A stretch of DNA of 64,000 nucleotides from contig NZ_CP011388.1 of the NCBI RefSeq assembly GCF_001644605.1, forward strand, positions 3,686,501-3,750,500. Reading direction: 5' to 3'. Both the position numbers and the translations under genes were made by a program. Within the stretch, counting starts at the first letter, position 1. Each line of letters begins with the position of its first letter. The DNA is from Paenibacillus swuensis. GTDB taxonomy: Bacteria > Bacillota > Bacilli > Paenibacillales > DY6. The notes under the pieces are model-generated. The model was not told the origin of the DNA. It worked only from the letters and a program-made list of their open reading frames with translations, and ran no database searches. Below are positions 49,111-59,032 of the stretch, one piece after another.

Positions 49111-49139
49111 GCATATTAGAAGGTTACAGGGCATACGTT
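49111..49139 (+). promoter_or_regulatory. SigE-type (mother-cell) promoter of the collagen/glycosyltransferase group
   Basis: GCATATT fits the SigE -35 consensus KMATATT at all positions. A 14-base spacer, the preferred length, leads to CATACGTT, 7/8 to CATACANT. The start point would be about 30 bases before the first gene. SigE is active only in the mother cell during sporulation, which fits a spore-surface role. Confidence 0.65.
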
Positions 49140-49176
49140 TAATATGTCAGAATCTACGTATTGAGGGTGTATACCT

Positions 49177-49878
49177 GTGCCCAAGCTCACATTATCCATG
49201 ATCGTCAGGAATGAACAAGACCGTTACCTAGGTAAAGTACTCGAGAAGCATCGAGCCTATATTGATGAAGCGATCATCATAGATGACGCAAGTACCGATG
49301 AAACGGTGCAGCTATGTATGGAAAAGCTTGCGGGAATTCCATTGACTATAATTCGCAATGATACCTCCTGTTTTCACAATGAAGTTCAACTAAGAATGCA
49401 GCAATGGGCCGCTACGGTAAACAGTCGACCGGAATGGATTCTGAATATGGATGCTGATGAAACCTTTGAGGATTCTTTTAGGGATGAAGTTTCCATGCTT
49501 ATGGAAAATCACCAGCCCCAAGTGTATTATTTCCGACTTTATGATATGTGGAATGATTGTTCCTATCGCGAAGATGCCTATTGGCAGGCGCATCGAACGT
49601 ATCGCCCTTTTTTGCATAAATATCAGACGGATTATTCTTATTATTGGAAAAAAACCCCTCAACATTGTGGACGATTTCCTACCAATGTGGGAGAACAGCC
49701 TTACCTGTGTTCCAAACTTCGGGTGCAGCATTGGGGATGGTCACGGCTTACAGATCGTCAATTGAAATATAAAAGGTACATGGAACTGGATCCGGACGGC
49801 CGTTATGGCTGGCTAGAGCAGTACGAATCCATTCTGGACCCAAATCCTTCATTAATGAAATGGTCAGATTCTATTTAA
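49177..49878 (+). CDS. Family 2 glycosyltransferase
   Basis: 233 residues, a compact GT-A enzyme without membrane segments. The nucleotide-sugar site shows LTLSMIVRNEQDRYL, IIIDDASTDET and the DxD-type LNMDADETFED at about 91-101. GAGGGTG lies seven bases before the GTG start. It is the first gene after the SigE-type promoter and the next gene starts within 45 bases. I infer that it glycosylates the Thr-rich collagen encoded at the end of the group, as glycosyltransferases near bclA do in the B. cereus group. Confidence 0.85.
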   Translation: MPKLTLSMIVRNEQDRYLGKVLEKHRAYIDEAIIIDDASTDETVQLCMEKLAGIPLTIIRNDTSCFHNEVQLRMQQWAATVNSRPEWILNMDADETFEDSFRDEVSMLMENHQPQVYYFRLYDMWNDCSYREDAYWQAHRTYRPFLHKYQTDYSYYWKKTPQHCGRFPTNVGEQPYLCSKLRVQHWGWSRLTDRQLKYKRYMELDPDGRYGWLEQYESILDPNPSLMKWSDSI

Positions 49879-55700: not shown

Positions 55701-58700
55701 GGGCAACTGGAATCACCGGAATCACAGGAGTCTCTGGAGTAACAGGTGAGACAGGGGTAACAGGAGTTACAGGAGTTATAGGACCGACTGGATTAACAGG
55801 GTTCACAGGAGTCACGGGTGCGATAGGTGAGACGGGAGCAACTGGAATTACAGGAGCAACGGGTGAGACCGGAGCAACTGGAATTACAGGAGCAACGGGT
55901 GAGACCGGAGCTACAGGTGCAACTGGAATCACCGGCATCACAGGAGTCTCTGGAGCAACAGGTGAGACAGGAGCTACAGGGGCAACAGGAGTTACAGGAG
56001 TTACAGGAGTTACAGGAGTTACAGGACCGACTGGATTAACAGGAGCAACAGGATTTACGGGTGCAATAGGTGAGACGGGAGCAACCGGAGCAACAGGAGC
56101 AACGGGACCGACTGGAGCAACTGGAATTACAGGAGCTACGGGAACTACGGGAGCAACAGGAGCAACAGGACCGACTGGAACAACTGGTTTCAACGGAACC
56201 ACGGGAGCAACAGGAGCAACTGGAATCGCCGGAATTACAGGAGCAACAGGACCAACAGGAATCACAGGCGAAACAGGACTGAATGGAGTCACAGGTACAA
56301 CAGGTGAGACGGGAGCTACAGGGGCAACTGGAATTACCGGAATCACAGGAGTCTCTGGAGTAACAGGTGAGACAGGGGCAACAGGAGTTACAGGAGTTAT
56401 AGGACCGACTGGATTAACAGGGTTCACAGGAGTCACAGGTGCGATAGGTGAGACGGGAGCAACTGGAATTACAGGAGCAACGGGTGAGACCGGAGCTACA
56501 GGAACAACTGGTGTTACTGGTGCAACAGGAATAACAGGAATAACAGGAGTGACAGGAGCAACAGGAATAACGGGCACATCAGGACCTACAGGAATCACAG
56601 GCGAGACAGGACTGACTGGAATAACAGGAGCAACAGGAGTAACTGGAGTCACAGGTACAACAGGTGAGACGGGAGCTACAGGGGCAACTGGAATCACCGG
56701 CATTACAGGAGTCTCTGGAGTAACAGGTGAGACAGGAGCTACAGGGGCTACAGGGGCAACAGGAGTTACAGGAGTTACAGGACCGACTGGATTAACAGGA
56801 GAAACAGGATCCACGGGTGCAATAGGTGAGACGGGAGCAACCGGAGCAACAGGAGCAACGGGAGCAACAGGACTGACTGGAGCAACTGGATTCACCGGAG
56901 CCACGGGAGCTACAGGTTCAACTGGAATCACCGGAATCACAGGATCCACAGGATCCACAGGATCGACAGGAGCAACAGGAGCTACAGGGGCTACAGGCGA
57001 AACAGGAACAACAGGAGTAACTGGAATAACTGGAAACACAGGGTTCACGGGTGCAGCAGGTGAGACGGGAGCAACAGGGCCGACTGGAATCACAGGATCC
57101 ACAGGAGCAACGGGTGAGATCGGAGCAACAGGAATAACAGGAGTGACAGGAGCAACAGGAATAACGGGCACAATAGGACCAACAGGAATCACAGGCACAA
57201 CAGGAGCAACAGGAATCACAGGCGAAACAGGACTGACTGGAATAACAGGAGCAACAGGTGTAAACGGAGTCACAGGTACAACAGGTGAGACGGGAGCTAC
57301 TGGTGCAACAGGTGAAACAGGAGCAACAGGAGCAACAGGGCCGACTGGATTAACAGGGTTCACAGGAGTCACGGGAGCAATAGGTGAGACGGGAGCAACC
57401 GGAGCAACAGGACCGACTGGAGCAACTGGAATTACAGGAGCAACGGGTGAGATCGGAGCAACAGGAATAACAGGAGTGACAGGACCAACAGGAATTACAG
57501 GCGAAGCAGGACTGACTGGAATAACAGGAGCAACAGGAGTAACTGGAGTCACAGGTACAACAGGTGAGACGGGAGCTATAGGTGCAACTGGAATTACCGG
57601 CATCACAGGAGTCTCTGGAGCAACAGGTGAGACAGGAGCCACAGGGGCAACAGGAGTTACAGGAGTTACAGGAGTTACAGGACCGACTGGAATAACTGGA
57701 ATTACAGGAGCTACGGGTGCAACAGGTGAAACAGGAGCAACAGGGCCGACTGGATTAACAGGGTTCACAGGAGTCACGGGTGCAATAGGTGAGACGGGAG
57801 CAACAGGACCGACTGGAGCAACTGGAATAACAGGAGCAACGGGTGAGACCGGAGCTACAGGAACAACTGGTGTTACTGGTGCAACAGGAATAACAGGAGT
57901 GACAGGAGCAACAGGAATAACGGGCACAACAGGACCAACAGGAATCACAGGCGAAACAGGACTGACTGGAATCACAGGAATCACAGGAGTCTCTGGAGTA
58001 ACAGGTGAGACAGGTGCTATAGGGGCAACAGGAGTTACAGGAGTTACAGGACCGACTGGAGCAACTGGGATTACAGGAGTAACGGGAGCAACCGGAGCAA
58101 CAGGACCAACTGGAGCAACTGGAATTACAGGAGTAACGGGAGCAACCGGAGCAACAGGACCAACTGGAGCAACTGGAATTACAGGATCCACAGGAATTAC
58201 AGGTGCAACTGGAATCACCGGCATCACAGGAGTCTCTGGAGCAACTGGAATTACAGGAGCAACAGGTGAAACAGGAGCAACAGGACCGACTGGATTAATA
58301 GGGTTCACAGGAGTCACGGGTGCAATAGGTGAGACGGGAGCAACCGGAGCAACAGGACCGACTGGAGCAACTGGAATTACAGGAGCAACAGGAATAACGG
58401 GCACAACAGGTGAGACGGGAGCAACCGGAGCAACAGGACCGACTGGAGAAACAGGACCAACAGGACCAACAGGACCAACTGGAATTACAGGCGAAACAGG
58501 ACTGACCGGAGTAACAGGAGCAACAGGAGTAACCGGAGTCACAGGTGCAACCGGGGCTACAGGAGCAACAGGCACCACAGGAACGACCGGTGAAACAGGC
58601 GTAACAGGAATTACTGGAACCGGAACAACAGCAACCTCTTCTTTCGCAGCAAATACAACAGGATCGGCAATAGGTGTTTTGCTTGGAGGCACGAACATCC

Positions 58701-59032
58701 CCTTGCCCAATGAACAAAATATAGGAACAGGCATTACCGTAAACGGTGCTAATACCGTATTTACCGCAACTACAGCCGGCAGGTATTACATCACGTATCG
58801 CATAAATACAACAGCCTCTCTCCTCACAGGAACGCGATTGCTGATTAACGGTGCAGCCAACACGGCTTCTACGGTTACGCCTACCTTAAGTGTTTCCTCC
58901 TACAACAGTGATGTTATCGTTACCTTACCGGCGAATTCAACCATATCTCTGCAGTTTTTCGGTTTAATTGGTACAGCCACCTTATTAAGCGGTGGAGCCG
59001 GGGCCGCTTTAACCATCATCCGATTAAGTTAA
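52799..59032 (+). CDS. Giant BclA-like collagen-like spore-surface protein
   Basis: 2077 residues, no signal peptide. Residues 1-111 form an N-terminal domain with the AEAEK module ([30 protein letters not shown], then [15 protein letters not shown]). Residues 112-1940 are about 610 Gly-X-Y triplets, mostly Gly-X-Thr. Residues 1941-2077 form a compact beta-rich domain ([25 protein letters not shown]) like the trimeric C-terminal domain of BclA. Interruptions: an Asp for Gly near residue 133, a Val for Gly at 54152-54154, and several Gly-Thr-Gly or Gly-Ala-Gly slips near the start. The only Cys in the triplets is Cys140. Thr side chains would be glycan sites. TGGAGAG precedes the ATG. Confidence 0.95.
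53511..53546 (+). repeat. Four perfect tandem copies of a 9-base unit
   Basis: CTGGGATAA is repeated four times without change, coding for consecutive GIT triplets. It is a likely slippage site that would alter length without changing the frame. Confidence 0.9.
55475..55708 (+). repeat. Perfect 117-base tandem duplication inside the collagen gene
   Basis: Two copies (55475-55591 and 55592-55708) appear identical base for base and each codes for 13 triplets beginning [11 protein letters not shown] diverged third copy starts near 56220. Perfect identity indicates a recent duplication. Confidence 0.88.
55988..56023 (+). repeat. Four perfect tandem copies of a 9-base unit
   Basis: GGAGTTACA is repeated four times, coding for GVT triplets. 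It is a second likely slippage site. Confidence 0.9.
58058..58165 (+). repeat. 54-base tandem duplication
   Basis: Two 54-base units, differing at one base that I could see, encode [18 protein letters not shown] twice. Confidence 0.85.

Follow-up and report, generated by a model that had tools for sequence, protein, structure and literature searches.

A six-gene locus of Paenibacillus swuensis with small A-ENA-related proteins, probably the source of a very long spore hair of sugar-coated collagen

A number of appendages and collagen-like proteins have been described from the surface of bacterial endospores. Three endospore appendages (ENAs), designated S, L and F, are characterised, and a collagen-like tip fibrillum has been named as a common ENA feature, with F-ENA-2a as an exception (accessible part of PMC11952670). 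In Bacillus thuringiensis, the collagen F-BclA docks on the F-ENA fibre by the same element that links the F-ENA subunits (PMC11952670). Late, sigma-K-type control has been suggested for other ENAs (accessible part of PMC12921279). Moreover, the PDB holds a further fibre as entry 9IHH, titled 'Ex vivo spore-silk A-ENA fibers' and released on 2026-03-04; an open-access search, outside which bioRxiv preprints and most subscription journals lie, gave no literature on this entry. Here, these systems are compared with a locus of six plus-strand genes in a 64,000-nucleotide stretch of the P. swuensis genome (contig NZ_CP011388.1, positions 3,686,501 to 3,750,500), hereafter called the window. The genes encode, in order, a glycosyltransferase (GTa), two small proteins (A and B), a small basic-tailed protein, a tandem glycosyltransferase (GTN-GTC) and a giant collagen. 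Their products probably form a very long spore hair of sugar-coated collagen, in which small A-ENA-related proteins take the place of the anchors described for the anthrax-type spore coat.

Two other described systems concern spore collagens and their sugars. BclA1 has been proposed to form the nap in Priestia megaterium QM B1551; a possible sigma-E promoter has been noted for it, and the nap is kept in a bxpB mutant (accessible part of PMC4674009). The word 'glycosyl' does not occur in the main text of that paper. Plasmid pBM500 of this strain, which carries bclA1, has been reported, in a source accessible in part, to be needed for exosporium assembly or stability. In Clostridioides difficile, SgtA is an enzyme composed of a glycosyltransferase (GT) domain and TPRs; its gene lies next to bclA3, and the enzyme adds beta-O-GlcNAc to the threonines of collagen peptides (accessible part of PMC7157674).

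The central finding concerns a domain of about 80 to 100 residues, with the motif AEAEK at its centre, that is present in protein A, in protein B and at the N-terminus of the giant collagen. By sequence comparison, these three modules are homologues of an endospore-appendage fibre subunit, the one in 9IHH. A hidden Markov model (HMM) built from 87 sequences of other organisms detects exactly these three among the 711 open frames of the window. With this model, which contains no window rows, and with Z set to 5000, the E values are 3.2e-28 for 9IHH, 7.4e-22 for the collagen N-terminus, 7.1e-20 for protein A and 6.4e-18 for protein B. The corresponding alignment (A4) holds 87 of 110 non-redundant modules plus the three window rows; the resulting profile of 90 rows finds one PDB entry at E values up to 1, namely 9IHH (E 1.5e-26). 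A profile of 16 rows finds the same entry at 2.7e-28, with the next matches at 0.6 or worse, and protein B as a single query has 9IHH as its top PDB match (E 0.037). The collagen N-terminus, the only module modelled, is predicted by AF2 to be a two-helix hairpin (pLDDT 87.1, pTM 0.68), for which Foldseek ranks 9ihh_A first (probability 1.00, TM 0.65/0.72, E 0.079). Because two-helix hairpins are simple, the fold match counts as supporting evidence only. Neither Pfam nor NCBIfam has a model that reaches its cut-off over the domain, whether in protein A, protein B and the collagen or in 10 module proteins of relatives, so that module genes probably go unrecognised in annotation. In the open literature searched, the letters AEAEK occur in one paper, on Anopheles.

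The second element is the collagen itself. It comprises 605 triplets in blocks of at least five, with threonine in the Y position of 521 of them (86%), and the seven short breaks in the repeat all lie before residue 455. Collagen rises by 0.286 nm per residue, which gives a predicted span of about 519 nm (roughly 0.5 µm) for some 1815 collagen residues. The repeat matches PF01391 and the C-terminal head is BclA_C (PF18573, E 4.6e-47). Among 112 module-bearing collagen open reading frames (ORFs) examined, some of which run off the ends of their stretches, it is the longest, followed by collagens of 460 and 422 triplets. No exosporium leader model (TIGR03720 in NCBIfam) is among the NCBIfam matches of the giant collagen at E values up to 1, and by eye the protein has neither a signal peptide nor an LPXTG end. 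A minus-strand ORF at 53233-58734 was rejected as a gene and read as the mirror image of the collagen repeat. Elsewhere, a module-less collagen of 2484 residues and 774 triplets lies near two module-bearing collagens (L075, 745-8199; L numbers denote stretches of DNA). The other collagen genes of the P. swuensis genome, at about 0.70, 2.18 and 4.72 Mb, were considered as relatives of the giant collagen and set aside, as no module was found in them. The same genome encodes a 2618-residue protein of another type (L009, 9503-17359), whose collagen part is short, at 18 triplets, and which by eye appears to be secreted and to lie outside this system.

The module is widespread. It is present in 19 of 99 order-level relative genomes and in 36 of 398 genomes sampled across the phylum, the own genome being included in both counts. 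A scan of named genomes gave at least 599 stretches, of which at least 519 were confirmed, and the best ones were kept as 78 loci. These include Paenibacillus, Cohnella, Croceifilum, Baia, Thermoactinomyces, Brevibacillus, Lysinibacillus and Bacillus atrophaeus, and contain 173 module ORFs: 101 collagen fusions, 59 free-standing modules and 13 others. Free-standing here means that there is no collagen run and that fewer than 50 residues follow the module; 58 of the 59 such proteins have at most 200 residues and one has 244. Collagens are not the only fusion partners of the module: in one stretch of genome G029 (L062, 7654-8379 and 12583-14253) DUF11 (B_ant_repeat) domains are attached to it, so it may be a plug-in for different surface proteins. 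No match was found among phage records at an E value of 1e-5, and a phage link for the locus was dropped. At the same threshold, a search of a plasmid collection with one module gave a single partial match, in Bacillus velezensis (NZ_CP083716.1, 157429-157602), at a gene that bears the annotation collagen-like protein.

A tree of 202 modules separates the three modules of the window. Protein B belongs to a clade of 8 free-standing proteins (support 0.994), nested in a collagen-free clade of 27 (0.985), and protein A to a clade of 5 free-standing proteins (0.905), which had 4 members at a support of at least 0.9 when the tree was repeated with 9IHH. The collagen N-terminus falls in a clade of 130 that contains all 103 collagen fusions (0.806). 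Genes of the A and B types are adjacent in five stretches, as an overlapping tandem in the window and in Cohnella sp. WQ 127256 (L100), and divergently in L084, L070 and L058. The Cohnella stretch additionally encodes GTC and a module-collagen of 1697 residues. Free modules of the main clade also occur in L100, L084 and L070; none was found in the window genome. In P. alba (L104), GTa, GTC, GTN-GTC, three free modules (one of the B type), a further ORF and two module-collagens all point in one direction.

The third element is the set of three GT domains. Homologues of GTa (E 1e-82 to 1e-94) are found beside or fused to GTN in other genomes. In GTN-GTC, the C half matches PF00535 (E 2.2e-30) and the N half stays below the cut-off. 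Against the PDB, the best matches of the GTC half are GmaR (1.1e-23) and SunS (about 1e-15), both of which modify proteins, and the GTN half weakly matches procollagen galactosyltransferase 1 (COLGALT1, E 2e-4). The helical tail of GTC matches TPRs just below the Pfam cut-off (26.1 versus 27 bits), and the helices are present in the AF2 model; a match to a prolyl-4-hydroxylase peptide-binding domain (E 6e-4, below cut-off) was taken as an ordinary TPR cross-match. For the whole-protein AF2 model (pLDDT 84.3, pTM 0.59), Foldseek ranks 1-6 are SunS/ThuS, followed by chondroitin polymerase (7-12) and COLGALT1 (13-20); the TM-scores are low.

The three domains were followed over 122 annotated stretches (the window, L009-L011 and L042-L159, of which L042-L061 were fetched around GT matches), counting only matches below 1e-40. 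All three occur together in 24 stretches. Their fusion order differs: GTN-GTC in the window and in P. alba, GTC-GTN in Lysinibacillus (L159) and GTN-GTa in P. daejeonensis L083, L096, L059 and L066, from which we infer that the three domains act on one product. Eight of the 24 complete sets are accompanied by a module, all eight also by collagen, and two more have collagen without a module. A strong match to a member of the set is found in 13 of the best 78 named module loci, where about 1% would be expected by chance (a rough estimate based on 1-6 matches per positive genome). Members of the set adjoin Gly-X-Thr (GXT) collagens in Paenibacillus, Cohnella, Lysinibacillus and Priestia. On pBM500, GTC and GTN-GTa lie divergently (L166, 15010-17650) beside a 954-residue collagen of 220 triplets with a Thr-in-Y fraction of 1.00, which matches BclA1 by size and repeat number as given in the accessible part of PMC4674009. 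BclA1 has no module and yet stands beside the set, which suggests that GXT collagens, and not the module, are what the GT set accompanies. Further Priestia plasmid records also match the double GT. On a Paenibacillus sonchi plasmid (L167, about 10001-11464), the double GT matches in four pieces, partly annotated as hypothetical protein; with a Tn3-family transposase gene nearby, this is probably a decayed copy.

Expression signals link the locus to sporulation. The full SigE pattern has a single match within the window, directly ahead of the operon, and three matches in the 5,012,599-base genome; the reversed control pattern has none. One of the two other sites precedes ytrH (PF14034), a member of the SigE regulon in B. 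subtilis, and the other a ClpP-like gene. Upstream of control ORFs the full pattern is absent (0 of 1019 regions). Both search patterns, for SigE and for SigK, represent consensus sequences. A SigK-like pattern precedes 29 of 214 module genes versus 18 of 1019 control regions (Fisher p 4e-12), and the SigE core pattern 6 of 214 versus 4 of 1019 (p 0.003); several of these regions are paralogues of one genome, which makes the p-values too optimistic, and the two sets are treated unequally, as controls are mechanical ORFs of at least 200 residues and module starts were placed by domain, although the direction is clear. These counts cover upstream regions of at least 200 bases and module starts displaced by at most 300 bases, with identical regions counted once. 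SigK-like matches also occur upstream of 4 of 70 GT genes and of 2 of 21 module-less collagens. The genome encodes sigma-E (TIGR02835) and SpoIVA (TIGR02836), both above cut-off, so that the source organism is very likely a spore former.

An earlier note on this DNA, made from its letters, had described six plus-strand genes with their overlaps and domains behind a SigE-type promoter; coordinates and spacing were confirmed and the promoter match is exact. Its view of a sporulation-linked locus for a long, probably glycosylated collagen was likewise strengthened by the exact promoter, the sigma-E and SpoIVA genes and the SigK-like enrichment in relatives. Features that it did not contain are the third AEAEK module at the collagen N-terminus, the BclA_C head at the C-terminus and the helical, TPR-like tail of GTC. 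In relatives, where it proposed to look for the same gene order, the gene set recurs and the order varies. Other points had to be revised. The free-standing modules, seen by the note as anchors that dock the collagen, are homologues of a fibre subunit and hence may build a fibre beyond docking one. They are not special to this locus either, given that 59 of the 173 module ORFs are free-standing, and the double GT, taken as a distinguishing feature, is one of several fusion orders and also lies beside a module-less GXT collagen.

From these elements, we favour the reading that the six genes form a compact locus for an endospore appendage of the A-ENA ('spore silk') family, in which the GTs decorate the threonines of the giant collagen, and we consider it somewhat likelier than its negation. 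A collagen that begins with an A-ENA domain and is encoded beside free-standing A-ENA proteins would, by analogy, fit the F-ENA/F-BclA plan. Judging from the promoter, the operon would come under sigma-E control and be expressed in the mother cell. The two free-standing proteins and the collagen N-terminus may then co-assemble on the spore, with the collagen docking via its subunit-like domain as F-BclA does in F-ENA. GTa, GTN and GTC would decorate the collagen threonines that fill most Y positions; family and architecture suggest that GTC probably starts the glycan and that GTN and GTa extend it. The predicted product is a glycosylated hair of about half a micrometre with BclA_C heads, possibly reaching out from the spore for adhesion or clustering.

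Several observations weigh against this reading. The three modules share just 22-26% identity with 9IHH and fall outside the small clade of this subunit, at distances of 2.98-4.75 substitutions per site; that clade contains 4 other module proteins, one of them a 556-residue DUF11 protein (support 0.806). Foldseek gives no match at E values up to 0.001, 9IHH coming first at 0.079. Genome searches yield three modules only, without an ordinary fibre subunit, and a polymer is unproven. Concerning the GTs, 65 of the best 78 named module loci have no strong GT match, and 16 of the 24 complete sets have no module, 14 of these also lacking a nearby collagen; 13 of the 14 come from one genus (g15). The Thr fraction of collagens of at least 20 triplets is barely higher near GTs (median 0.72, n=31, versus 0.62, n=103; p 0.024). 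With this p-value, and with collagens near GTs not being longer (p 0.15), Thr content was discarded as proof of GT action on collagen. Of the 214 module genes, which come almost entirely from other genomes, none has the exact SigE pattern ahead of it; promoters in relatives look SigK-like where there is a match, which indicates that SigE timing is no family trait. Finally, this reading gives the basic-tailed protein no role.

The alternative that survives best is that the modules are a docking base only. The A-ENA shaft would have been lost, and proteins A and B would make up, with the collagen N-terminus, a small helical complex by which a collagen nap is fixed directly to the coat, close to what the note had in mind. 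This would suit a genome in which just three modules were found, none of them in the clade of the 9IHH subunit, and in which A and B fall in clades of collagen-free proteins. The predominance of collagen fusions among the 173 module ORFs points the same way, as does the absence of a basal-layer protein for a BclA-type anchor: the ExsY/CotZ family (PF10612) has no match in this genome, the control search being positive in B. subtilis. However, a fibre that has been seen ex vivo has a subunit related to the module. Moreover, in L100, L084 and L070 the A and B types are accompanied by main-clade free modules and by module-collagens, so that they occur there within fuller loci. As the modules of P. 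swuensis are only three and divergent, this anchor reading stays alive, although we regard it as unlikely.

A second alternative is considerably less probable still: the GT set would be at this site by chance or convenience and serve other substrates, such as further collagens or a polysaccharide of the surface, and the giant collagen would be glycosylated by enzymes encoded elsewhere or not at all. It draws on the 14 complete sets with neither module nor collagen in their stretch and on the likeness of the fold to polysaccharide enzymes, chondroitin polymerase ranking above COLGALT1. However, each of the six module-less genomes tested (five of g15, one of g24) has collagen genes at other sites. 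The other 10 complete sets have collagen nearby, set members adjoin GXT collagens in the four genera mentioned above, and the best PDB matches of GTC by sequence are GmaR and SunS, which modify proteins. That the locus makes a collagen adhesin of vegetative cells instead of a spore structure is very improbable: such collagens exist in other bacteria and the LPXTG type is among the weak NCBIfam matches to the repeat, but these matches lie far below cut-off in the N- and C-terminal collagen fragments scanned, neither end of the protein looks secreted or sorted by eye, and the BclA_C head, the exact SigE promoter, the spore-fibre homology and the SigK-like promoters of relatives all speak for spores.

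The appendage reading can also be taken further. The three divergent A-ENA hairpins might co-polymerise without an ordinary pilin, the giant collagen then being a subunit of the shaft and not its cap. The three-domain GT set would be a bacterial counterpart of collagen galactosyltransferase plus SgtA that coats hundreds of threonines, and throughout Bacillota the hairpin would have found repeated use as a plug-in by which collagens or DUF11 repeats become attached to spores. As a whole, this extended version is speculative and we consider it doubtful.

The features of the locus are collected in Table 1. Along the six genes the spacing is, in order, +41, -23, -4, -23 and +28 bases, with three overlaps. 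The terminator hairpin ahead of the promoter was missed by a mechanical terminator scan, and 0 of 200 shuffles were as stable. For protein A a longer frame would begin at 49860, and its tail is acidic and contains cysteine; the start of protein B is uncertain (50215, 50221, 50227 or 50239).

Table 1. Coordinates of the locus and its control elements in the window
Feature	Position	Strand	Evidence or remark
Whole locus, six genes	49177-59032	+	ORF list, translations
Intrinsic terminator of the preceding genes, hairpin and U tract	49058-49087	+	-16.3 kcal/mol, z -4.47
SigE-type promoter, GCATATT-N14-CATACGTT	49111-49139	+	37 bases upstream of the GTG start
GTa, single-domain GT2 glycosyltransferase, 233 aa	49177-49878	+	PF13704 E 1.7e-9, PF00535 E 2.2e-7; start codon GTG
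Protein A, free-standing A-ENA-like helical-hairpin protein, 109 aa	49920-50249	+	HMM without window sequences
Protein B, second free-standing A-ENA-like protein, ~102 aa	~50227-50535	+	HMM without window sequences
Basic-tailed small protein, 102 aa	50532-50840	+	net +5 across the last 35 residues
GTN-GTC, tandem GT2, 650 aa	50818-52770	+	N half ~18-280; C half ~290-415 plus helical tail
Giant collagen, 2077 aa	52799-59032	+	A-ENA-like module 1-106, 605 G-X-Y triplets, BclA_C head

A Pfam and NCBIfam scan gave nothing above cut-off for the basic-tailed protein, nor was a significant homologue found among the ORFs of the 122 annotated stretches. It was considered as a degenerate module and rejected as such, because 163 of 2000 shuffles score equally high and no significant homologue exists in that set. 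In other loci a variable extra ORF adjoins the free-standing modules (L056, 6626-7456; L042, 7318-8067; L104, 9170-9832), roughly at the position of the basic-tailed gene; the one in L056 bears a degenerate B-type module. Downstream of the collagen, at a distance of 111 bases, lies a gamma-glutamyltransferase gene (59144-60760; PF01019 E 2.7e-148). As no terminator is listed between the two, read-through is possible. As a partner of the locus this gene was dropped, since a homologue lies near a module in only 1 of the 78 named loci (L085). Farther upstream, a 406-residue ORF at 41435-42655 weakly matches the GTC domain (E 9e-4) and is possibly another glycosyltransferase.

The fibre type as such is already known from 9IHH. 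Possibly new are the breadth of the module family, its collagen fusions, the A and B types and the link with the GTs, some of which the authors of 9IHH may describe themselves. The module thus ties a further kind of appendage to collagens and to a defined GT set in many genera of Bacillota. The GT set beside bclA1 on pBM500 offers a tractable system for the question of how bacterial collagens are glycosylated, and the window holds a minimal version, with six genes and three modules, which turns 'anchor or fibre' into a directly testable question.

Compared with the A-ENA of 9IHH, the locus shares a homologous module of about 100 residues. It differs by the low identity of its modules, their position outside the 9IHH clade and the ordinary subunit not found in the genome, and by the additional fusion of the module to the giant collagen and its link with a GT set. 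With F-ENA, as described in the accessible part of PMC11952670, it has in common a small fibre subunit, a collagen tip protein that carries the docking element of the subunit, a C1q-like head on that collagen and a glycosyltransferase gene nearby. However, in the system of F-ENA, F-BclA and F-Anchor the docking element of F-BclA is a short hook, in contrast to the whole subunit-like domain found here, and F-BclA has 701 collagen residues versus about 1815. The subunits of F-ENA moreover belong to DUF4183 (PF13799), which has no match in the P. swuensis genome; among the control genomes it matched only in Synechococcus, below cut-off, so that detection of a true F-ENA is undemonstrated. The Enas subunit family of S- and L-ENA (PF13157) has no match in this genome nor in any control genome.

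The BclA of the B. cereus group likewise combines a collagen, Thr-rich repeats and a BclA_C head (PF18573), whereas the giant collagen has no exosporium leader match and its genome no PF10612 match. SgtA resembles the GTC half by architecture, in having a GT domain with C-terminal TPRs and a gene beside a Thr-rich collagen. It is a single enzyme, while in the P. swuensis locus its counterpart forms one half of a tandem with another GT domain, and a further GT is encoded upstream. COLGALT1 is similar as a tandem GT that acts on collagen, with the weak match to the N half and the Foldseek ranks given above; it acts on hydroxylysine, and its overall TM-scores are low (about 0.3), so that the likeness is architectural and no demonstration of kinship between the whole proteins. 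Lastly, BclA1 of pBM500 differs by its N-terminus without an A-ENA module, by GTs arranged as GTC plus GTN-GTa and by its 220 triplets, but with BclA1 and BclA2 this plasmid presents the same combination as the locus described here, a GXT collagen nap beside the same three GT domains.

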